A stretch of 47,616 nucleotides of DNA from Negativicutes bacterium (GTDB taxonomy: Bacteria; Bacillota_C; Negativicutes; Sporomusales_B; JARLHX01): NCBI GenBank assembly GCA_031292015.1, contig JARLHY010000192.1, forward strand, positions 1 to 47,616, given 5' to 3'. The notes under the pieces are model-generated. The model was not told the DNA's origin, ran no database searches, and saw only the letters and a program-made list of their open reading frames with translations. A program made the position numbers and the translations under genes. Position 1 is the first letter of the stretch. The number at the start of each line of letters is the position of its first letter. Positions 4,829 to 31,881 of the stretch are shown here, in pieces.

Positions 4829-5255
4829 GGGGGGTTGTCTCAAAAAGGGTTTTGAGACAACCCCCAGTCGATCAGCAAAATGCACTGGGAAAATAATTTT
4901 GCCTTCGCTTTTGGGCTAAAAGTAGCGATGAGCGGAGGTGGGCGCGCTGGGAGCAGGCCAATTTCCCGAAGGATGTACTCGCCGTTAATGCAGCGGACGG
5001 CAACAGCCCAGCAGGCGGAACCTTGGATGGTTCCGCCGGTCTCCCCTGCGTCACGGACGACGCAGGGGAGACGGTGCGGCGCTGTCGGTGCAAATTTATG
5101 GCGCGTTCATCCGAAGGCCCCGGCCGGCTTCCGGCGCCCTTCTGCGCGGGCCTAAAAGCCGATACAAAGCAAATGATCCCCCCTTCCCCTAGTCTGTCTA
5201 CAAACTGGAGGAGCTGCCTCAAACAGGTTTCTAAAACCTATTTTGAGACAGCCCC
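4829..5255. repeat. palindrome-bounded intergenic repeat element (MITE-like)
   Basis: About 430 bp of non-coding DNA bounded by two related palindromes. The left one is perfect: 16-bp arms 4830-4845 and 4850-4865 with loop AGGG. The right one (5210-5255) is imperfect. Both contain the core (T/C)TG(T/C)CTCAAA and its complement, which resembles insertion-sequence termini. No transposase frame is seen inside. The interior carries two further perfect hairpins. It fills most of the 790-bp gap between the larA-like gene and hydE. It could be a MITE, a deleted IS, or a structured RNA region; copy number in the genome would decide. Confidence 0.55.
5014..5072. repeat. two adjacent perfect hairpins with 6-nt loops
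   Basis: GGCGGAACC (5014-5022) pairs with 5029-5037 around the loop TTGGAT. One base later GTCTCCCCTGCGTC (5039-5052) pairs with 5059-5072 around the loop ACGGAC. Outer ACAGC (5003-5007) could pair with GCTGT (5082-5086), giving a three-way junction. The strong perfect pairing inside the repeat element is not explained by any gene. Confidence 0.75.
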
Positions 5256-22857: not shown

Positions 22858-24531
22858 TCACAGCCTGACGACCGGTTTTGTGGCAAAGCGGGGCCCGTCC
22901 GCCCCTTTGACCGCCAGCGTGTGCTTTAGCCAGCTGTCGTCGTCGCTTGCCGGGAAATCGCGCCGGAAATGATGGCCCCGCGATTCCTGGCGCAGCAGGG
23001 CCGCGCCGGCAATCAGTCCGGCTGCCTCGCCCATGATCTCAAGCTGCAGCGCGTCCACCAGCTGCTGATTATAGCTGGAAACAGCCGGCACCCTCAGCCG
23101 CTGCGCCTCTGACCGCACCGTCGCCGCCACCTCAGCCAGCTTCCGCAGCCCTGCCGCGTCCCGGTGAACCCCGGCGTGACGCTGAACAGCCGAACGCAGC
23201 TCAGACCGGAGAACCTTGATGTCTGCTCCGCCGGCCGGCCCCACCGCCACTTTCGCGGCGACCCGCTCGACTTCGCCGGCCAGCCAAACCGGGTCGGCTT
23301 CAAGCTGCTGGCCGGCTTTGGCCCACTCATGGGCGTACAGCCCCGCCCTGGCCCCGAAGACCTGGGTTGCCGTGAGACCGCTGCCGGTCAGGCGGTTGGC
23401 CCCGTCAAAGTTGCCGGCGCATTCGGGGGTGGCGTACAGGCCCTGCAGCGTTGTCCGGCACTGGCTGTCAATGTGAATCCCCCCCAGCAGGTAATGGGCT
23501 CCGGGAGCCACTTCGATCCGGTCGGTAGCCGGCTCGACGCCATGTTGCCTGATATAATTGTACTGAGCGGTACTCAGGATGCTCTTCACCGTCTCCGGCG
23601 GTTTGGGGGAATCCCCCACATACCAGAGCAGTCCGCCCCGGGCCGTGCCGCGCCCGCCATCTATCGCCCCGGCCATCAGCCGCATCGCCTCATCCCTCAC
23701 CGGCAGGGGCGTGGGCAGAACCGGAGTCCCGTTTTTATCATAGACATTGCCACCCAGGGCTGTCGGCGTCAGGAATTCGTAGTGAACGAACGCCCCCTGC
23801 AGCGACGGCGGCCAGACAAGCACCGAGGGATAAAACAGCACCATCTCCATATCGACAAGCTCCGCTCCGGCCCGGTAGGCGTAAACCACACCATCGCCGA
23901 CGGCGTCGGTGGGACAGTCGTTCACCTTCCATAGCCACTGGCAGCCGCCGGTAGCCATCACCACGGCCTTGGCGTTAATTTTCAGCAGTTCCCCGTCCCG
24001 CAGGCTCAGCCCGACGGCCCCGCAGACCGCCTGCCCGGCCTGCAGCAGTCCGCTGACGAAAAAGTCATCAAGCAGCGTAATGTTGGCGTGACGCCGGCAG
24101 GCCTTGGCCAGCGCCGCCACAATGCCGATTCCGCCACCGCTGATGAAAATGCCCCGCGGCTTGGACTGGCCGGGGAACTGGCGAAGAGTGCAGTTTCCGT
24201 CCTCGTCACGGATAATCTTCGCTCCGTATTTCTCCAGGTCCAGCGACCGTTCGCAAGCCTCCTCGGCCAGGACCCGGGCAAGGTTTTCATCCCCCAGACC
24301 ATAACCGGCGGCCAGTGTATCGCGGAAAAAAAGTTCCTGGCTGTCCTCCGGGTGAAACGGAGCCTGCAGGCCGCCCGCCGCAGTCAGTGAAATCCCCGAG
24401 CGGGCCAGCGGCCCCTTGTTGGTCAGCAGCACCCGGGAGCCGGCCTCCGCCGCGGCCAGTGCCGCCCTGAGTCCCGCTCCGCCGGCCCCGATAATCAGCA
24501 CGTCTGTCCTAAGTTCTCTGGCGATCTTCAT
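22858..24531 (-). CDS. FrdA/SdhA-like FAD-dependent dehydrogenase or reductase
   Basis: 557 residues from ATG four bases after the upstream stop, with GGGGTG as ribosome site. FAD-binding GAGGAGLRAALAAAEAGSRV lies near the N-terminus, then the family loop ARSGISLTAAGGLQ. The C-terminal segment GGIHIDSQCRTTLQGLYATPE and NRLTGSGLTATQVFGARAG is typical of the fumarate reductase, aspartate oxidase and tricarballylate dehydrogenase superfamily. It probably interconverts a C=C and C-C bond of a carboxylic acid. The partner is the 2Fe-2S protein upstream. The cluster suggests fumarate, aconitate or tricarballylate as substrate, not resolved. No heme-binding membrane anchor gene nearby. Confidence 0.88.
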   Translation of the reverse strand: MKIARELRTDVLIIGAGGAGLRAALAAAEAGSRVLLTNKGPLARSGISLTAAGGLQAPFHPEDSQELFFRDTLAAGYGLGDENLARVLAEEACERSLDLEKYGAKIIRDEDGNCTLRQFPGQSKPRGIFISGGGIGIVAALAKACRRHANITLLDDFFVSGLLQAGQAVCGAVGLSLRDGELLKINAKAVVMATGGCQWLWKVNDCPTDAVGDGVVYAYRAGAELVDMEMVLFYPSVLVWPPSLQGAFVHYEFLTPTALGGNVYDKNGTPVLPTPLPVRDEAMRLMAGAIDGGRGTARGGLLWYVGDSPKPPETVKSILSTAQYNYIRQHGVEPATDRIEVAPGAHYLLGGIHIDSQCRTTLQGLYATPECAGNFDGANRLTGSGLTATQVFGARAGLYAHEWAKAGQQLEADPVWLAGEVERVAAKVAVGPAGGADIKVLRSELRSAVQRHAGVHRDAAGLRKLAEVAATVRSEAQRLRVPAVSSYNQQLVDALQLEIMGEAAGLIAGAALLRQESRGHHFRRDFPASDDDSWLKHTLAVKGADGPRFATKPVVRL

Positions 24532-24535
24532 ATGC

Positions 24536-24883
24536 TCACACCCCGTCCTGCGCGGAATCCAGCGGCTGAGAAAAGTCAACCACCACGTCCCGGATGATTT
24601 TGAACCTGGAATGCGGTTCCACCGTGACCGCCTCGCCGGGACTCACCAGCGTCGTACAGCCGAATACATCCTTGCCGTTGGCCCTGACCAGGCAGGAGCC
24701 GCAAAACCCCTTGAAACAGGTTGACGTTCGGCAGGCGAACCCCGGGTCCAGCTCGTGAACCTTGGCCAGCAGCGCCATCACCGACAGCGCCTCATCGGTT
24801 TCGATCATGAACTCCTGGAACCGGCCCTGGCTGTCCGTTCCCGGTGTAAAGCGAAAGACCTTCACCGTTATACCCTGTGTCAT
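24536..24883 (-). CDS. 2Fe-2S protein equal to the N-terminal half of FrdB/SdhB
   Basis: 115 residues. The Fer2_3-type domain shows CRTSTCFKGFCGSC...C, the plant-type 2Fe-2S ligand set of succinate dehydrogenase iron-sulfur subunits. The sequence then reads IIRDVVVDFSQPLDS and stops, exactly where full-length FrdB would continue into its two-cluster ferredoxin domain. GGGGGG lies nine bases before the ATG. It passes electrons to or from the FrdA-like protein immediately downstream. The missing 3Fe-4S/4Fe-4S part is unusual and implies another electron partner. Confidence 0.85.
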   Translation of the reverse strand: MTQGITVKVFRFTPGTDSQGRFQEFMIETDEALSVMALLAKVHELDPGFACRTSTCFKGFCGSCLVRANGKDVFGCTTLVSPGEAVTVEPHSRFKIIRDVVVDFSQPLDSAQDGV

Positions 24884-24994
24884 TCAGCAAATCCCCCCAG
24901 ACCATCTTTTCCCCTTCCGGACTTGTCCGCCGGATCCTGGAAATATATTGTAATAGTTAGCCAAAATAGCGAAAAAGTCCTGTAACCGCCCAAA

Positions 24995-25035
24995 CAAATA
25001 ATTAACCTTTGCCTACAGCAAAGGTTAATTATTTG
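24995..25035 (-). terminator. 18-bp perfect AT-rich hairpin after the DASS gene
   Basis: CAAATAATTAACCTTTGC (24995-25012) pairs fully with 25018-25035 around CTACA. It begins 10 bp past the DASS transporter stop. On the minus strand TTATTTGTTTG follows. Likely a terminator or a processing/stability stem between the transporter and 2Fe-2S genes. Confidence 0.65.
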
Positions 25036-25045
25036 AACTATATGG

Positions 25046-26449
25046 TTACCACAGGCCTAATATCTTCCACCAGATGGAGCCAAGGCCAAGCCATATTACC
25101 AGGTTAATCAGCGAAATCATAAAACCGATTTTCCACCACGTGCCCTGCTCGATATAACCTGCCCCGAAATAAATCGGCGCCGGGCCGGCCGCGTAGTGGG
25201 TCAGCGACATACCCAGATGGGAGGCATAAGCCAGAATCAGCACCGTCAGCATCAGCGGCGCGCCGGCGGCCACCGCCACCGTGGCGAAGGCGACGAACAT
25301 GGCTGTGACGTGGGCGGCGACACTGGCGAAGCCATAGTGGGCATACAGGTAAACCAGAACAAGGACCACGAAAGCAGTTGTCCAGGGAACGCCCACCAGG
25401 CTGGCGGCCACCGCTTTGGCAAACCAGGGGATAAAGCCCAGTTTGGAGAGATGATCGGCCAGACTGAGCAGGCTGCCCATCCAGATCATTGTATCCCAGG
25501 AGTGTTCTTCCTTGAGAACGTCTTTCCAGTCGACCACCCCAAAGATGATCGTCACCGACACCCCGGCCAGGGCGACGATCGCCGGGTCGATCTTGTTGAT
25601 GGTACTGGTGCTCCAGAGGGCCAGCATACCGAGAAACACGGCGGTGGTAATTTTCTCGCCCCGCGACATCGACCCCATTTTCTTCAGTTCATCGGCCGCT
25701 ATTTGCTTGGCTTCAGGGGTGTCCTTGAGTTCCGGCGGGTAAACCCGGTAGATGAAATACGGAATAACCAGGAGGGACACGATGCCAGGCACCACGGCTC
25801 CCAGCGCCCACAAGCCCCAGGTGATGTTGGCGTGCAGCGTGTTGATGGCCAGCGCCGCGGCGAGGGTATTCGCGGCTGAAGCGGTCATGAACATGGATGA
25901 ACAGATGCCGTCCCCCTGATAACTGACCTTCAGCAGATAGGCGCCGATCTTCCGCGCCGTCGGACCCGGTTCGGAACCAAAGGCCGAGGCCAGGCTGCGG
26001 ACGATCGGGAACATGATGCCTCCGGCCCGGGCGGCGTTGGACGCGGTCGCCGGTGAGATGATCAGGTCGGCGATGACCACGGCGTAGCCCAGGCGGAGCG
26101 CACTGCCGCCGATGGCCCGCATTACCGTATAGGCGACGCGCCGCCCCAGCCCGGTTTTCTTGAAGGCCACCGAAAACACGAAGGCGGCCACGATCAGCCA
26201 GATGGTGGTGTTGCTGAAGCCGGAAAGAGCCTCAGCCGGCTTCAGGACATTGACAAAAGCGGCGAAGGTTATGCTGATGAGAGCGACCGCCCCGATCGGC
26301 AGCGGTTTTACGATAAATCCGACAATAGTAGCGACAAATATAGCGAACAAATGCCACGCCTCTGGCTTGAGACCGGTCGGTACAGGTATGAACCAGATGA
26401 CGGCGCACAAGGCAACGACACCCAGACCCCGGACCACAGAATTATTCAC
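25046..26449 (-). CDS. DASS-family di/tricarboxylate transporter
   Basis: 467 residues; GTG start with GGAGG seven bases upstream. About 12 membrane segments. Substrate-site motifs of the DASS/SLC13 (SodiT, CitT-like) type: SPATASNAARAGGIMFPI in the first repeat, and SLTHYAAGPAPIYFGAGY followed by a WWKIGF stretch near the C-terminus. Members exchange or symport malate, 2-oxoglutarate, citrate, tartrate or related acids with Na+. Its place between the aconitase/dehydrogenase block and the flavoprotein block makes it the likely uptake system of the cluster. Confidence 0.92.
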   Translation of the reverse strand: MNNSVVRGLGVVALCAVIWFIPVPTGLKPEAWHLFAIFVATIVGFIVKPLPIGAVALISITFAAFVNVLKPAEALSGFSNTTIWLIVAAFVFSVAFKKTGLGRRVAYTVMRAIGGSALRLGYAVVIADLIISPATASNAARAGGIMFPIVRSLASAFGSEPGPTARKIGAYLLKVSYQGDGICSSMFMTASAANTLAAALAINTLHANITWGLWALGAVVPGIVSLLVIPYFIYRVYPPELKDTPEAKQIAADELKKMGSMSRGEKITTAVFLGMLALWSTSTINKIDPAIVALAGVSVTIIFGVVDWKDVLKEEHSWDTMIWMGSLLSLADHLSKLGFIPWFAKAVAASLVGVPWTTAFVVLVLVYLYAHYGFASVAAHVTAMFVAFATVAVAAGAPLMLTVLILAYASHLGMSLTHYAAGPAPIYFGAGYIEQGTWWKIGFMISLINLVIWLGLGSIWWKILGLW

Positions 26450-26503
26450 TAGACACCCTCCTCTGCATACTATTACTCTAATAGCTGCCCCTACTCAAGC
26501 AAA

Positions 26504-26551
26504 CTGCGCCTGCCGGCTCGCCGGCAAGCCTTGTCGGCCTGTCCGGCGCAG
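26504..26551 (-). other. predicted three-way-junction structure upstream of the DASS gene
   Basis: CTGCGCC (26504-26510) pairs with GGCGCAG (26545-26551) and encloses TGCCGGC..GCCGGCA (26511-26526) and a small GCC..GGC hairpin (26528-26538). It lies in the 154-bp gap between two genes of the cluster and has no T run. It may act in mRNA processing or translation control of the transporter. Confidence 0.45.
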
Positions 26552-26603
26552 CCGCATAAAAATCTTTGATCATCGCTCTGTCGACAACCAAATTCTCTCT
26601 AGT

Positions 26604-27221
26604 TTACACGTTCTCGCGGATAATCTCGGCGCAGCGCACCTGGTTGAAGATGCCGCAATAGCAGAAGTCGCTGAGGCGGATAGCCCCCTGCTCCGGTGTC
26701 ATCTTGCCTGACTCCACCTGTTTCATGATATGGCTGACGAATTTGGGCGGTATCATATGATGGCCGCACATCGTCGTCACCGACAGGGTGACCTCGTCCG
26801 GCAGCTTGTCCTTGCGTCCCCACACTCCCAGAGAGTAGTTGACTGAATGCGGCGTCACCCCGGCCTCTTTGCAGGCTTCCAGCACTTCCGGCAATACGCC
26901 GGTGATCACCGCCGACATCCCCAGCTCCTGCTCCTTGATCCGCTTCAGGAAACCCACTACCTGCTCTTTCCGGGTGAATACCCCCCGCAGCCGCGACTTG
27001 TCGGAGATTTTAGCTTTGATTTCCTCCGAACTGAAGCGGGTCACCGGGCCGGTTTTCACGTCGCCCCAGTTTTCCGAACCCACCGCCTCGGCGGCTTCGA
27101 TGTACGCCAGCGCTTTCGGTCTGATCCCCACGTCGTTGACGCCCTTGGTCTGATACATGAACCAGTTGAAGTCCTTTTTCTGGGACTCGATGTCACCTGA
27201 ACGATGCAATGAATGCGTCAT
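26604..27221 (-). CDS. Cys-rich protein of unknown function
   Basis: 205 residues, ATG with AGGAGG eight bases upstream, 14 bp after the ferredoxin-domain gene. Soluble, no signal peptide. The C-terminal third holds TTMCGHHMIPPKFVSHIM and SDFCYCGIFNQVRC: four Cys and two His that could bind a metal or Fe-S cluster. The middle reads VVGFLKRIKEQELGMSAVIT and SVNYSLGVWGRK, suggesting an alpha/beta fold. I do not recognise the family. The tight spacing and shared strand tie it to the neighbouring aconitase-type enzymes and the ferredoxin protein, so it is probably a part of the same pathway or complex. Confidence 0.75.
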   Translation of the reverse strand: MTHSLHRSGDIESQKKDFNWFMYQTKGVNDVGIRPKALAYIEAAEAVGSENWGDVKTGPVTRFSSEEIKAKISDKSRLRGVFTRKEQVVGFLKRIKEQELGMSAVITGVLPEVLEACKEAGVTPHSVNYSLGVWGRKDKLPDEVTLSVTTMCGHHMIPPKFVSHIMKQVESGKMTPEQGAIRLSDFCYCGIFNQVRCAEIIRENV

Positions 27222-27235
27222 GGTTGTCTCCCTCC

Positions 27236-27964
27236 TTAATCCGTCACAAGCGGCCGGCCCAGGCCGACGTTGACTTTTCCCCGGTGCGGCTGCGCGATGC
27301 CCAGCTCGTCCAGGCAGCTTAGCGTGGCATTGTGGCCTTCTTCGTCCACCCTGAGGATCAGCCCCAGGGAAAACACGGTGTCGATTTCCTTCTCCACCTT
27401 TTGCAGGGCCGCGAGAGCGTCCTTCAGCTGGTCTTCCCGACAGTGTCCTTCGATGATGACTGACAGCATCCGGGTATCAAGGCAATCTTCCTTCAGCTTG
27501 CCTGTGGTGATATCCGGCATGAGCCCCATCAGTGGCGACTGATCCGGCTGAGCCAGCTCCACCCCGGCGCTGCACAGCGCCATCGCTACTTTTTCGGCGT
27601 CCCGCAGGTGAACTCCCAGCCCCGGGCGCCCCATATCAATCGCGAAGCCCACCTGGCCGCGCCTTACCCGGCCGGATACGTCGTTGGTCTTGACTTCTTC
27701 CGTGCCCCGGCCGGTCACGCCGGTCACCGGGTGGTTCTCCACCGGGTCGCTCATCATGTGCTTGAACTCCTTGTAAAAGGTATCCAGCGGCGACGGTTCG
27801 ATGGCGTCCTTGGGACATACCTTCTGGCGGAGACAAACATAGCACTCCACACACTCGTCCTGATCGATATGGCATTTCTTGTCCCCGAAGTGGATGGCAT
27901 CCACCGTGCAGTAGGTCATACAGATTTTACAGCCAATACACTTGTCCTGATTCACTTGAGCCAT
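27236..27964 (-). CDS. ferredoxin-domain protein with unknown C-terminal domain
   Basis: 242 residues. N-terminal 2x[4Fe-4S] ferredoxin domain (about 1-55): CIGCKICMTYC and CVECYVCLRQKVC with a longer last spacing. After a linker comes an unassigned domain (about 95-242) with RGQVGFAIDMGRPGLGVHLRD, MLSVIIEGHCRED and a C-terminal helix-rich part. It could be an electron-transfer subunit with a binding domain. ATG with AGGAGG; 18 bp after the aconitase small-subunit gene and 14 bp before the Cys-rich protein. It may supply the 4Fe-4S clusters that the FrdB-like partner lacks (inference). Confidence 0.8.
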   Translation of the reverse strand: MAQVNQDKCIGCKICMTYCTVDAIHFGDKKCHIDQDECVECYVCLRQKVCPKDAIEPSPLDTFYKEFKHMMSDPVENHPVTGVTGRGTEEVKTNDVSGRVRRGQVGFAIDMGRPGLGVHLRDAEKVAMALCSAGVELAQPDQSPLMGLMPDITTGKLKEDCLDTRMLSVIIEGHCREDQLKDALAALQKVEKEIDTVFSLGLILRVDEEGHNATLSCLDELGIAQPHRGKVNVGLGRPLVTD

Positions 27965-27981
27965 TCAGCTTTCCTCCTTAG

Positions 27982-28506
27982 CTAATTTTCCGTTCTGCCG
28001 GCTGGCAGCACGTGGGTAAGATACGGCACCAGGCCGCCCAGGCGGATGTACTCCAGCAAAAAAGCCGGTGGTTTCACGAAAGAGTACGCTTTGCCTGTAG
28101 TCAGGTTTGTAATCACACCGTCTTCCAGATTGATGGCGGCACAGTCGCCGCCGTTTGCCTCGGCCGCAAACGCGGAACAGATAATGGCCGGTATGCCGAG
28201 ATTATAGCAGTTGCGGTAGAAGATCCGGGCGAAGGAAGCCGCCACCACCGCGCTGACCCCGGCGTGTTTCAGCGCCTGGGGCGCCTGCTCCCGGCTGGAA
28301 CCGTAGCCTAGGTTGACGCCGGCTGTCACGATGTCCCCGGGCTGAACCTGACCGGCGAATTCCGGGTCCGCGCCAGCCATGCAGTGGGCTGCCAGTTCCT
28401 CCGGCCTGGTCTGGGTCATGAAACGGGACGGCAGGATATGGTCGGTGCTGAGATTGTCGCCAAATTTCCATACCTTGCCTTTGAGCAGGATCACTTTCAG
28501 ACTCAT
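27982..28506 (-). CDS. aconitase/isopropylmalate isomerase family, small subunit
   Basis: 174 residues from ATG, whose last bases overlap the stop of the large-subunit gene (ATGA). The frame is open upstream but belongs to the large subunit in another frame. LeuD-type swivel domain: KFGDNLSTDHILPSRF near the start and the substrate-contact loop GYGSSREQAPQAL (about 75). The variant GSSREQA is shared by LeuD, homoaconitase and dimethylmaleate hydratase small subunits. It forms the active hydratase with the large subunit. The substrate is a 2- or 3-carboxy-hydroxy acid. Confidence 0.9.
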   Translation of the reverse strand: MSLKVILLKGKVWKFGDNLSTDHILPSRFMTQTRPEELAAHCMAGADPEFAGQVQPGDIVTAGVNLGYGSSREQAPQALKHAGVSAVVAASFARIFYRNCYNLGIPAIICSAFAAEANGGDCAAINLEDGVITNLTTGKAYSFVKPPAFLLEYIRLGGLVPYLTHVLPAGRTEN

Positions 28507-29768
28507 TTGCCTCGCCCTCCCATCAGTTCCCGCGGATCGGTGATCACGCCGGTTACGGCCGACGCCGCCACCGTCAAAGCGCTGGCCAGATAAATCTGGC
28601 CGCCCTGGCCCATCCGGCCTTCCATATTGCGGGTCGTGGTCGAGATGCATACTTCCCCCGGCGCCAGGCAGCCAACCTCGTAGCCGGCGCAGGTGCCGCA
28701 GGCCGGCGAACTGATAACCGCCCCGGCCTTGGTAAGCTTTTCGATAAGACCGTCGCGGGCCGCTTTCTCCACCACCTGCGACGTATTGGGCACAATGACG
28801 AACCGTACATCAGGGTGAACCCGCCGATTTTCCAGAACCGCGGCCGCCTGGGCCAGATCGTGGTAAAAAGCGCCCGAGCAAGACCCGAGAGTCGCCTGAT
28901 CGATCCGCGTACCGGCGGCCTGTTGCACAGGCCTGCCGTTAGTCGGCAGGCTCGGCGGAGCTACGACCGGCTCAAGCTTCGACAGGTCGTAGCTTCTTTC
29001 TTCTTTATATATTGCATCAGCGTCAGGAGTCACAAACCAATCCCCCTCCCGCGCACCACCCAATTTTTCCAGTGTTTTGGCGTCAGCCGCCACGAAAACG
29101 TTCTTGGCGCCCATCTCCAGCCCCATGACCGCCACCGCCATCCGCTCGTCCACCCCGAGCGACTCCACCAGCGGACCGCCCAGTTCCAGGGCCAGGTAAT
29201 TCAGCCCCTGCGGCCCGAACTCATTTAGCAGAAACAGGGCGATATCCTTGGCAGCCACCTGCGGGCGAAGCTCCCCGGTGAGGGTGACCTTGACCGTTTC
29301 CGGTACCATGAGCCAAACCTTGCCGGTAGCCAGCACCCCGGCCATCTCCGTCGAGCCGATCCCGCTGGCGAAGCAGCCGCAGACCCCCTGACCGACGGTG
29401 TGGGAGTCAGTGCCCACTACTACGCTGCCGGGACGGGCCAGCCCCTCTTCCACCACCACCGGGTGCATAACCCCGCGTCCCGGCGGAAACACCCGGGCGC
29501 CTTGGCGGGCCGCGAAGCGGCGCAGAGCCCGGTGGTGCTCGGCCGCCCGGAACGTGGTGGCCGGCGAATGATGATCAAGGACAAACCACACCCTGTCCGG
29601 AGCCCAAATGCCGTCAACAGGCAATTTCGCGAATTCTTCAATCATAATCGGGCCGTTATTGTCATGAATCACCGCCAGGTCCACCGGCACATCGAGGATC
29701 TGCCCCGGCACCGGGTCAGCCTGGCCAGCCTTGGCTCCGAGAATCTTTTGCACTACCGTCAAACCCAC
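28503..29768 (-). CDS. aconitase/isopropylmalate isomerase family, large subunit
   Basis: 421 residues; GTG start with GGGGGG six bases upstream. The LeuC-type [4Fe-4S] cluster Cys are in LGSCSGAF and SSPACGTCAGYEVG. Further family segments: VVGTDSHTVGQGVCGCFASGIG, then EMAGVLATGKVWLMVPET. It hydrates and dehydrates a cis-aconitate-like acid with the small subunit. The 420-residue length fits the archaeal/Firmicute LeuC-HacA group, not the 900-residue aconitase A. No leuA or leuB-like biosynthetic set adjoins, whereas a transporter and redox genes do, which favours catabolism. Confidence 0.92.
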   Translation of the reverse strand: MGLTVVQKILGAKAGQADPVPGQILDVPVDLAVIHDNNGPIMIEEFAKLPVDGIWAPDRVWFVLDHHSPATTFRAAEHHRALRRFAARQGARVFPPGRGVMHPVVVEEGLARPGSVVVGTDSHTVGQGVCGCFASGIGSTEMAGVLATGKVWLMVPETVKVTLTGELRPQVAAKDIALFLLNEFGPQGLNYLALELGGPLVESLGVDERMAVAVMGLEMGAKNVFVAADAKTLEKLGGAREGDWFVTPDADAIYKEERSYDLSKLEPVVAPPSLPTNGRPVQQAAGTRIDQATLGSCSGAFYHDLAQAAAVLENRRVHPDVRFVIVPNTSQVVEKAARDGLIEKLTKAGAVISSPACGTCAGYEVGCLAPGEVCISTTTRNMEGRMGQGGQIYLASALTVAASAVTGVITDPRELMGGRGK

Positions 29769-29780
29769 ACTGATCCCCCC

Positions 29781-30863
29781 CTAAACCTCGGCCAGCTTGC
29801 GGCAGACGGCATCGCCCATCTGCTCGGTGGTCGCCGTCCCGCCAAGGTCCGGTGTTACATCAGTCAGTTCGTCAAGCACCTTGCCTATAGCCGCCTCGAT
29901 ATCCCGGGCGCAGGCCACCATCTGCTCGTCGCCCTGACGCATCCCCAGCCACTGGAGCATCATCTGGCCTGACATGATCATCGCGTAGGGGTTGGCGATA
30001 TGCCTGCCGGCGATATCCGGCGCCGAACCGTGGGTCGCCTGAGCCATGACGTAGCGCGGTCCGACGCAGAGCCCCGGGGCCATCCCCAGGCCCCCCACCA
30101 GGCCGGCCGCTTCGTCAGTAAGAATGTCGCCGAACATGCTGGTGGACACCACCACATCAAAGTTCTGCGGTTTCATGACCAGTTGCATCGCGAAAGTGTC
30201 GACCACCGCGGTGTCAAAGGTGATATCAGGAAATTCTTTGCTGACATCCCGGCAGGAGTCGATGAACAGGCCGCAGCCCAGCTTAAAGACGGTATTCTTA
30301 TGGATGGCGGTCACCCGTTTTTTGCCGCCCCGCAGGCGGGCAAGCTCAAAAGCCGCCCTGGCCGCCATCTCGGAGTTGCGGCGAGTGATCACCCGCACCG
30401 ACATGGCGATATCCGGGGTTGGCATGAATTCACCGCTGCCTTTGTACATATTCCGGTCCGGCTGAAAGCCTTCGTTGTTTTCCCGGATGATCACAAGATC
30501 GACGTTTTGATGAATCGACGGCAGGCGCGGATGCGACTTCGCCGGCCGGACATTGCTCACAAGGTCGAAAGTGCGCCGGATGATCGGGTGGGGGTTGATT
30601 GCCTTAGGGTCATTCTTGGGATAAGCCATGTGGCCGATCGGCCCCAGTATCCATCCATCCAGTTCCAGCAGCGTACTGAGTGTCTGCTCCGGCAGCGTCT
30701 CACCCAGGCTTTTGTAAGCCGGGGCTCCCACCGGCAGCGGCACCCACTCCACATTTACCTGCGGGTATTTCTTCAGTGCCTCTTGCATGATCTTGACAGC
30801 CACCGGCACGATTTCCAGACCGATGTCGTCACCCTCCAAAATTCCAAGCCGATAATTTCCCAT
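29781..30863 (-). CDS. isocitrate/isopropylmalate dehydrogenase family protein
   Basis: 360 residues, beta-decarboxylating dehydrogenase fold. N-terminal LGILEGDDIGLEIVP is the family start; substrate-loop HPIIRRTFDLVSNVRPAKSHP supplies arginines; AIHKNTVFKLGCGLF contains the catalytic Lys; DILTDEAAGLVGGLGMAPGL contains the metal-binding Asp pair; HGSAPDIAGRHIANPYAMI is the coenzyme loop. It oxidises and decarboxylates a 2-hydroxy-3-carboxy acid (isocitrate, isopropylmalate, homoisocitrate or a methylmalate); the substrate loop does not match a single class clearly. First gene after the divergent LysR promoter region, 12 bp before the aconitase large subunit. Confidence 0.9.
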   Translation of the reverse strand: MGNYRLGILEGDDIGLEIVPVAVKIMQEALKKYPQVNVEWVPLPVGAPAYKSLGETLPEQTLSTLLELDGWILGPIGHMAYPKNDPKAINPHPIIRRTFDLVSNVRPAKSHPRLPSIHQNVDLVIIRENNEGFQPDRNMYKGSGEFMPTPDIAMSVRVITRRNSEMAARAAFELARLRGGKKRVTAIHKNTVFKLGCGLFIDSCRDVSKEFPDITFDTAVVDTFAMQLVMKPQNFDVVVSTSMFGDILTDEAAGLVGGLGMAPGLCVGPRYVMAQATHGSAPDIAGRHIANPYAMIMSGQMMLQWLGMRQGDEQMVACARDIEAAIGKVLDELTDVTPDLGGTATTEQMGDAVCRKLAEV

Positions 30864-30931
30864 ATCTGCTCCTCCTGTAATACTGATTGTACTGGTAAAT
30901 ATACTACTACCGTAACACTAACTGAAAAATA

Positions 30932-30960
30932 ACTGAAATATTCAGTAAATATGGTATAAT
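30932..30960 (+). promoter_or_regulatory. lysR promoter and LysR-type operator
   Basis: TG-G-TATAAT (TATAAT 30955-30960) is an extended -10 on the plus strand. Its -35 zone is the palindrome ACTGAA-ATA-TTCAGT (30932-30946), and another ACTGAAA half-site lies directly before it. The palindrome of T-N11-A form in the 136-bp divergent gap is the probable LysR site, controlling both directions. Confidence 0.65.
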
Positions 30961-30999
30961 AACAAATACATATCGTTGGATAAATCAGGAGGCCCCTCA

Positions 31000-31881
31000 A
31001 TGGAACTGCGGGAATTAGAATACTTCCGGGAGGTGTGCCGGACAGGCAGTTTCACCCGGGCGGCGGTCAATCTTTACGTGGCCCAGCCTTCGGTGACCAA
31101 CGCCGTTCGCAAGCTGGAATCCGAACTCGGCGTCCAGTTATTCCACCGTACCAACAAAACCGTGACCATAACCCCCGAAGGTCAGGTGTTCCTCGAACGG
31201 ATAACCGCGCTGCTTTGCATGGCCGAAGAAATCGTCCAGGAAATGCGCGATTTTGATACCTTGAGCCGAGGCTCCCTCAAACTCGGCATACCGCCGCAGA
31301 TCGGCGCCAATCTTTTTCCCGACCTCTTCATGGAATTCGGCGCCCTTTACCCCAACATCAATCTGAGCGTTTTCGAGGAAGGCTCGGTAGCGACGCTGGA
31401 CCTCCTGGAAAAGGGCGAGCTTGACGTAGGCATCATTGTCCTGCCCGAAACTGCTCACGAACTGAATATCCATCATCTCCGGCAAGAACCCATCCTGCTT
31501 TGCCTGTCGCCCCGGCATCCCTTCAACGGTCGCGATGTAGTCGACTTCTCCGAACTGCGGGACGAAAAATTCATTCTGAGGAAAACCGATTCCTTTCACC
31601 GCAACATCGTGCTTGAGCAGTGCCGCAGGCACGGCTTCACCCCTAATGTCATTTTCTCCTCCAACCAGCTTCAGACCATCAAATCCCTGGTGGCAAAAAA
31701 CGTCGGCATCGCCTTTTTCATGGAAATGGTGGTCAAACACGATCCGACCCTCGTCTCCCTGCCCCTGCGCGAACCCCTGTCCGTCCACATCGGTCTTGCC
31801 TGGAAAAAGGGACGCTACACCTCCAAAGCGGCCCAGGCATTCATCGATTTCGCCATCACCAAAGCCGCCGGCCCGTCTTGA
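31000..31881 (+). CDS. LysR-family transcriptional regulator
   Basis: 293 residues from ATG with AGGAGG eight bases upstream. N-terminal winged HTH (about 1-60; FTRAAVNLYVAQPSVTNAVRKLE), then an effector-binding domain (about 90-293) with GSLKLGIPPQIGANLFPDL. The protein is encoded divergently from the 30863-22858 cluster, the classic arrangement for a LysR activator of an acid-degradation operon. The effector is likely the substrate or an intermediate of that pathway. A terminator follows. Confidence 0.95.
   Translation: MELRELEYFREVCRTGSFTRAAVNLYVAQPSVTNAVRKLESELGVQLFHRTNKTVTITPEGQVFLERITALLCMAEEIVQEMRDFDTLSRGSLKLGIPPQIGANLFPDLFMEFGALYPNINLSVFEEGSVATLDLLEKGELDVGIIVLPETAHELNIHHLRQEPILLCLSPRHPFNGRDVVDFSELRDEKFILRKTDSFHRNIVLEQCRRHGFTPNVIFSSNQLQTIKSLVAKNVGIAFFMEMVVKHDPTLVSLPLREPLSVHIGLAWKKGRYTSKAAQAFIDFAITKAAGPS

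Follow-up and report, generated by a model that had tools for sequence, protein, structure and literature searches.

A LysR-divergent operon in a Negativicutes bacterium, tentatively for a tricarboxylate-like acid, with a conserved pair of uncharacterised iron-sulfur-type proteins

Introduction

Which acid is handled by the genes at positions 22,858 to 31,881 of contig JARLHY010000192.1 from a Negativicutes bacterium (assembly GCA_031292015.1), and which of these genes belong together? The whole stretch of DNA analysed, here called the window, is 47,616 nucleotides (nt) long. A first-pass annotation had read these genes as a single LysR-divergent set, in which a transporter, an FrdA-like flavoprotein, an aconitase-type hydratase and an isocitrate-type dehydrogenase take tricarballylate or trans-aconitate through cis-aconitate and isocitrate to 2-oxoglutarate. 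Open reading frames and family searches confirm the regulator, the dehydrogenase, the aconitase-type genes, the transporter and the FrdA-like gene at this place. Two genes lying between the hydratase and the transporter, here called Fd242 and U205, had been overlooked. They encode iron-sulfur-type proteins of uncharacterised chemistry and are the most conserved part of the operon. Our preferred explanation, held tentatively, is a LysR-controlled operon that imports and oxidises a tricarboxylate-like (citrate-like) acid in an anaerobe, with an iron-sulfur step carried out by Fd242-U205.

In Salmonella, the TcuABC system consists of the FAD dehydrogenase TcuA, the iron-sulfur electron carrier TcuB and the transporter TcuC; like the window, it combines a carboxylate transporter with a two-component redox step. 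Among the papers listed in searches of the open-licence literature, we saw no description of the present operon or of U205, which has no name usable as a search term.

Results

A conserved five-gene order

Five genes on the minus strand are tightly packed, with gaps of 12, -4, 17 and 14 nt. These are IDH of the beta-decarboxylating-dehydrogenase family (29781..30863; PF00180, 270.6 bits), AcnL, by its NCBIfam subfamily scores a LeuC/homoaconitase-type large subunit (28503..29768), AcnS, a LeuD/DmdB-type small subunit whose start overlaps the AcnL stop in ATGA (27982..28506), Fd242, with two [4Fe-4S] motifs matched by Fer4 families in residues 2-56 and an uncharacterised C-terminal domain (27236..27964), and U205, a protein of 205 amino acids (26604..27221).

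A scan for U205 in one genome from each of 84,980 species gave 51 loci, in which the clusters of neighbouring genes were labelled from one scanned representative per cluster. In 46 of these 51 loci, the gene immediately upstream of U205 is Fd242. Among the five exceptions, L009 and L034 begin at a contig end, in L033 an overlapping frame was called as the neighbour, in L049 Fd242 lies further downstream, and L051 is a partial match only. The full order IDH-AcnL-AcnS-Fd242-U205 is present in four of the 51 loci, all from Clostridia (L008, L012, L018 and L023), and because the same order recurs there it is not due to chance. Other arrangements exist as well. In L002 and L010, Fd242 is preceded by an additional AcnL-AcnS pair and by a transporter, and five loci (L020, L024, L025, L027 and L028) contain LysR, Fd242, U205 and IDH, with TctC and TctA genes next in three of them. 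TctA is found within the U205 operon in 29/51 loci, compared with 0/14 in a control set of FrdA loci.

Close relatives of U205 are rare in the class of the window. A U205-family match is present in 20 of 250 Negativicutes genomes, with at least 79% identity only in G001, G003, G027 and G043; the other matches are paralogues at 31-40% identity. No plasmid record matched U205 at E 1e-5. With IDH as the seed, the best two matches in the 250 genomes are 45% identical, and one genome holds both. In two further classes, searched at E 1e-105, 1/82 and 2/391 genomes were found, all three already U205 loci, and the L012 genome was missed at this threshold owing to an IDH divided between contigs. This IDH-seeded look at the three classes is a weak test and revealed no new cases of the IDH clade.

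The Fd242 and U205 proteins

No match to U205 was found in Pfam or NCBIfam, nor by sequence in the PDB up to E 1, and fold searches of the PDB gave no clear structural match. A protein search scored 816 homologues, and identity is 70-90% in many loci across phyla (Bacillota, Desulfobacterota-type and Synergistota records). Both cysteine motifs are present in all of the best 120 of these 816 homologues. Culturable relatives include Anaerosolibacter carboniphilus DSM 103526 (L019) and Acetonema longum, which has a U205 homologue (P0052). A set of 93 adjacent Fd242-U205 pairs, representing 89 distinct genes, was joined with the window; residues H3, R7, G9, C152, G153, H154, C187, C189, N193 and R196 of U205 are retained in 90/90 sequences, and conservation of the eight ferredoxin cysteines of Fd242 ranges from 88/90 to 90/90.

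The AlphaFold2 models have a mean predicted local distance difference test (pLDDT) score of 94.3 for U205 and 86.9 for Fd242. In the U205 model, strands and helices that the aligners match to ferredoxin-like folds are followed by helices 159-170 and 176-184. As a short turn joins these two helices, the loop with C152 and H154 should lie side by side with the loop with C187 and C189, judging from the list of structural elements. Conservation (90/90) and this predicted topology are compatible with a putative iron-sulfur cluster on U205, at Cys152, Cys187 and Cys189. The C-terminal domain of Fd242 carries a GRGTEEVKTND motif. Foldseek weakly matched Fd242 to MJ1052 and to the regulatory subunit of an aspartate kinase (E about 0.01); these matches probably fall on this C-terminal part, and the VIA match list is taken up by the ferredoxin half.

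Some relatives have a different company. In six loci (L011, L014, L016, L026, L038 and L045), paralogous Fd242-U205 genes adjoin an FNOR-like flavoprotein and a protein of ~490 amino acids, with a polyferredoxin also present in 5/6. Two of the ~490-residue proteins were tested and match the CODH catalytic subunit over the N-terminus only, at 51-53 bits against a cut-off of 478. We take these loci to resemble the mini-CooS idea. Distant Fd242-U205 relatives in L049 and L050 adjoin methyltransferase-type and ELFV-type amino acid dehydrogenase genes. Radical-SAM proteins are found near U205 in L030 and L043, one of them with a weak B12-binding match, and a GD_AH-type dehydratase, a CoA-transferase and an Fe-ADH are among the U205 neighbours in L030.

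IDH and AcnL fall in clades of their own

A tree of 40 IDH rows, to which long-branch warnings are attached, places the window IDH in a 12-row clade of anaerobes (support 99/99). The sister group is formed by five proteobacterial proteins (17 rows together, 99/97), and next out is a clade that includes IDHs encoded beside tcuAB (24 rows, 98/96; an inner fork of seven, 92/90). The IDH clade is apart from the leuB-like, tartrate-dehydrogenase-like and ICDH-like rows. The motifs [IV]NPHP and NNEGFQPDRN occur in the window IDH and 11 other clade members, in a count that leaves out L012 (cut by a contig end) and L031 (another clade); INPH and NNEGFQPDRN are also present in the five proteobacterial sister rows.

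In ICDH, the Tyr after RENTEx is the catalytic acid. In the IDH clade this Tyr, which ICDH-, IPMDH- and tartrate-type rows carry, is replaced by Gln, and at the same alignment position Met is found in an Ilyobacter relative and Tyr in two TcuAB-linked or Roseomonas rows. IDH scores below all listed ICDH equivalog cut-offs. It also scores below the LeuB equivalog TIGR00169 (192.5 bits, cut-off 353.2) and falls outside the leuB clade. At the recognition positions of a MAFFT alignment, the Ser and Asn of ICDH-type rows are replaced by Asn and His in IDH. A passage of PMC2796266 associates Asn with isocitrate, Leu with isopropylmalate and Trp at Glu88 with tartrate or malate.

AcnL scores above the cut-offs of NF001614 (465.8 against 385), TIGR01343 and TIGR02086, and below every listed equivalog. 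AcnS, scanned as a longer frame (27982-28650), reaches 181.2 bits on TIGR02087 (cut-off 108.95), contains the GSSRE motif and has the recognition loop SRFMTQ. The subfamily scores and the GSSRE motif place the pair in the aconitase superfamily, of LeuC/LeuD or DmdA/DmdB type. It is below the cut-offs for isopropylmalate isomerase (TIGR02083, 371.8 against 610.65 bits; TIGR02084, 170.4 against 245.85 bits) and for homoaconitase (NF040615, 340.2 bits, cut-off 550). In a tree of 23 rows, AcnL of the window is one of the 7 rows of a clade (100/99) that is distinct from the leuC rows.

The regulator, the carrier and the ends of the operon

The LysR-type regulator is encoded divergently, on the plus strand (30976..31881; PF03466 and PF00126). 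Its best NCBIfam matches are CidR and GltC, and all are below cut-off among the best 25 of 54. The divergent promoter region between LysR and IDH (30864..30975) contains four LysR-type T-N11-A boxes, each complementary at 4-5 of 6 positions; those at 30939 and 30952 are the best, and all four may be chance matches. At 30939-30964, two adjacent boxes occur together with a TATAAT hexamer. No Rfam family reached its gathering score within the cluster, and elsewhere in the window a TwoAYGGAY RNA motif is found at 4964-5119 on the plus strand (58.1 bits, gathering score 43).

Beyond the core lie three more genes on the minus strand, with 154 nt between U205 and the carrier, 162 nt between the carrier and Fer2, and 4 nt between Fer2 and FrdA. 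The carrier belongs to the DASS family of sodium-coupled anion carriers (25046..26449; TIGR00785, 441.3 bits, cut-off 198.6). The gap ahead of it holds a G+C-rich inverted repeat (26504..26551, minus strand); the surrounding 26480-26560 folds at -42.8 kcal/mol, compared with a mononucleotide-shuffle mean of -29.5 (standard deviation (SD) 3.6; lowest of 500, -46.5). Just 3' of the DASS stop is a perfect, terminator-like inverted repeat (24995..25035) with an 18-bp stem and a 5-base loop, at -23.5 kcal/mol compared with a mononucleotide-shuffle mean of -7.0 (SD 2.5; lowest of 500, -18.8); this hairpin was absent from the output of a consensus terminator scan. Given the gene gaps and the strong hairpin after DASS, the genes appear to form three parts (five in an operon, the carrier, and Fer2-FrdA on its own) and not one set.

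The Fer2-FrdA unit

Fer2 (24536..24883, minus strand) is a 2Fe-2S protein of 115 amino acids that resembles the N-terminus of SdhB/FrdB (PF13085, 68.9 bits) and matches only the N-terminal 2Fe-2S domain of SdhB-type proteins. The FrdA-like flavoprotein follows (22858..~24531, minus strand; PF00890 and PF02910). Orthologues of FrdA at 60-67% identity were found in 14 of the 250 Negativicutes genomes, one in each (E 1e-120). Fer2 adjoins FrdA in 10 of these 14 loci, and a longer FrdA frame was called in the remaining four. None of the 14 loci, with 14-18 kb fetched for each, carries a label for IDH, AcnL, AcnS, Fd242 or U205, while nine of the 14 genomes carry a U205-family gene elsewhere. Conversely, no FrdA or Fer2 label was found in the 51 U205 loci (threshold 100 bits).

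The HPT and RGEGG-type motifs are active-site motifs of fumarate reductase and succinate dehydrogenase flavoproteins. In 15/15 FrdA orthologues the His of HPT is replaced by Tyr, giving FYP(S/T) for FHPT (YPS in the window protein), and no RGEGG-type loop was seen in the aligned stretch of these 15 sequences; HMMER left the RGEGG-region stretch unaligned to three PDB chains among the matches listed. Because of these two features, the FrdA-like protein probably does not work as a normal fumarate reductase. Its top NCBIfam score is 350.7, on the TfrA model, among the best 25 of 60 matches. It is thus below the TcuA cut-offs, which are 369 bits for NF006130 and 372.55 for TIGR02485, models on which Pacificitalea TcuA reaches 686.7 and 604.4 bits; its FAD domain is 30% identical to that of TcuA over 209 columns (E 3e-12).

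On the orthologue neighbourhoods and the changed active-site motifs we rejected FrdA as a member of the operon, and Fer2-FrdA looks like a neighbouring, separate unit. Overall, the gene set of the first-pass annotation is confirmed in part: its genes are real, but it left out Fd242 and U205.

Discussion

In the mechanism that we suggest, the DASS carrier would bring the acid into the cell. Judging from conservation and predicted topology, Fd242 and U205 may act as one iron-sulfur enzyme, in which the two [4Fe-4S] clusters of Fd242 would exchange electrons with a U205 site where the acid binds, held by Cys152, Cys187, Cys189 and perhaps His154. This enzyme would most likely desaturate or otherwise redox-activate the acid, in a genomic slot like that of TcuAB. 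AcnL-AcnS would shift the hydroxyl group by dehydration, then rehydration, and the IDH-like enzyme would oxidise, and probably decarboxylate, the product to give a 2-oxo acid. A wider and more speculative idea, which we think rather unlikely to hold as a whole, is that Fd242-U205 represents a new family of flavin-free iron-sulfur oxidoreductases, that U205 binds its substrate at the open iron of a three-cysteine cluster, and that anaerobes rely on the pair, within their operons for such tricarboxylate-like acids, for a desaturation or dehydration step which in aerobes falls to flavoenzymes such as TcuA.

The proposed slot comes from neighbouring genes. According to a title cited in PMC10468695, TcuA converts tricarballylate to cis-aconitate. 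A search for IDH relatives matched 712 plasmid records, of which 15 were listed; in Pacificitalea, an IDH relative lies beside tcuA-tcuB, and MmgE/PrpD genes adjoin the IDH of the sister clade in 4/4 annotated loci viewed. A TcuA query matched 463 records, and seven tcuA loci were picked by hand from 30 rows. An IDH-family gene is directly after tcuB in two of the seven and nearby in a third. Genes near tcuA in these loci include GntR (seven), TTT (six), 4-oxalomesaconate tautomerase (six), AbrB-type (five), DUF1932 (two) and Ldh (two), and GntR, TTT, DUF1932, Ldh_2 and AbrB-type genes are common to the tcuA and the Fd242-U205 loci. Because of these shared neighbours, Fd242-U205 perhaps fills a slot like that of TcuAB in some aerobes, an analogy of context and not homology.

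Several points weigh against this explanation. Gene content, gene order, conservation and clade membership are observed; the substrate, the direction of the reactions, the order of the steps and the union of Fd242 and U205 in one enzyme are what we infer. The pairwise distances of Fd242 and U205 correlate at r 0.95 over the 89 distinct pairs and the window (maximum 0.19 over 2000 permutations); this counts in favour of the explanation, but shared ancestry contributes to it. All 51 loci were retrieved with U205 as the seed, so the linkage of U205 to IDH is measured from one side, and in the window a DASS carrier replaces the TctABC system of the four Clostridia loci. The tcuA loci were chosen by hand, four of the seven have no IDH-family gene in view, and BLASTP of Fd242 and U205 against a TcuB aligned a 13-residue cysteine motif only. 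The IDH clade has Thr at the Asn of HKAN, and with Gln for Tyr as well, ordinary decarboxylation by IDH is not assured. U205 relatives also adjoin CODH-like, radical-SAM and GD_AH-type genes, so the family extends beyond tricarboxylates.

The tricarboxylate pathway of the first-pass annotation survives in modified form, as a dedicated acid set with TctA frequent in U205 operons and with an IDH clade near the tcuAB-linked IDHs; its distinctive part is Fd242-U205 and not FrdA. Ordinary oxidation of citrate and isocitrate, with AcnL-AcnS as the aconitase, IDH as isocitrate dehydrogenase and Fd242-U205 in electron handling or an accessory role, is unlikely. It is favoured by the aconitase-type pair adjoining an IDH-family gene, whose product is polar at the positions that recognise isocitrate, and by the tricarboxylate transporters in relatives. 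However, the genomes of L008, L012, L018 and L023 also contain longer aconitase-type frames (548 to 794 amino acids), those of L012 and L018 hold a second IDH-type gene (41% identity) placed with the ICDH-type rows in the tree, Gln and Thr replace Tyr and Asn in the IDH clade, and several operons have TTT genes beside Fd242-U205 without hydratase or IDH (e.g. L013, L015, L019, L022 and L029). Slightly less likely still is a branched hydroxy-dicarboxylate, such as methyl- or dimethylmalate, citramalate or a 2-methylcitrate-type acid. AcnS is above the LeuD/DmdB small-subunit cut-off and MmgE/PrpD, the 2-methylcitrate dehydratase family, stands beside the IDH sister clade, but IDH has neither the Leu that an alkylmalate enzyme should carry nor the Trp of one acting on malate or tartrate, on the same passage of PMC2796266, and the only MmgE/PrpD protein tested (L163) is far under the PrpD cut-offs.

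The route of the first-pass annotation, in which the FrdA-like flavoprotein oxidises tricarballylate to cis-aconitate for AcnL-AcnS and IDH, is improbable. The genes are physical neighbours, the chemistry is coherent on paper, and the FAD domain has a distant kinship to TcuA, as expected within one flavoprotein superfamily. Yet the hairpin bounds the unit, no link to the operon appears in the 51 U205 or the 14 FrdA loci, the active-site motifs are changed and the scores are under the TcuA cut-offs, so tricarballylate oxidation via FrdA is unsupported. Least probable of all is that IDH, AcnL and AcnS are the leucine biosynthesis genes leuBCD. They share the superfamilies, but their scores are under the leuB, leuC and leuD equivalog cut-offs, IDH and AcnL fall in clades of their own, and the three keep company with LysR, a carrier and iron-sulfur proteins. 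AcnL-type and IDH-type matches outside the operon exist in 10/10 relatives' genomes searched. In five relatives (G251, G253, G254, G255 and G257) a leuC-type gene is about 0.5 kb from a leuB-type gene, and four of these have tree rows, which sit in clades other than that of the window. Leucine biosynthesis was rejected on these grounds, and the acid-catabolic role that the first-pass annotation had preferred to it is upheld.

Compared with known systems, the preferred tricarboxylate-like operon shares parts with several. Two Rhodobacterales tcuAB loci are followed by an IDH of a clade related to that of the window, whereas the window flavoprotein is no TcuA by score and Fd242 and U205 have only the cysteine motif in common with TcuB. 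LeuBCD and the homoaconitase and homoisocitrate dehydrogenase of Hac/Aks belong to the same superfamilies and follow the same hydratase-then-dehydrogenase logic, and the best PDB sequence matches are homoisocitrate/isocitrate dehydrogenases and isopropylmalate/citramalate isomerase; the window genes differ in their equivalog scores and clades. Homoaconitase has the recognition loop YLRT, unlike the SRFMTQ of AcnS. The aconitase and isocitrate dehydrogenase of the TCA cycle are alike in reaction types, but ICDH-type rows are elsewhere in the tree and keep the Tyr that is Gln in the window IDH. FrdAB, SdhAB and TfrAB resemble the FrdA-like family and the SdhB-like 2Fe-2S domain of the window, which differs by YP(S/T) for HPT, by the missing RGEGG-type loop, by a Fer2 that is an N-terminal domain only and by the absence of a link between Fer2-FrdA and the operon in relatives. 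Within Negativicutes, Acidaminococcus fermentans has IDH-type, MatC-type carrier and aconitase genes under neighbouring locus numbers, and its fermentation of trans-aconitate and citrate is described as running via citrate, oxaloacetate and pyruvate; the portion of PMC3035267 concerned names nothing resembling Fd242-U205.

U205 has hundreds of homologues yet no Pfam or NCBIfam family, and because the operon supplies a pathway and candidate substrates, its chemistry is directly testable. Relatives of IDH and AcnL are annotated as leuB, leuC or isocitrate enzymes, and these annotations would need correcting. The operon would also help to explain how anaerobes use tricarballylate-like acids.

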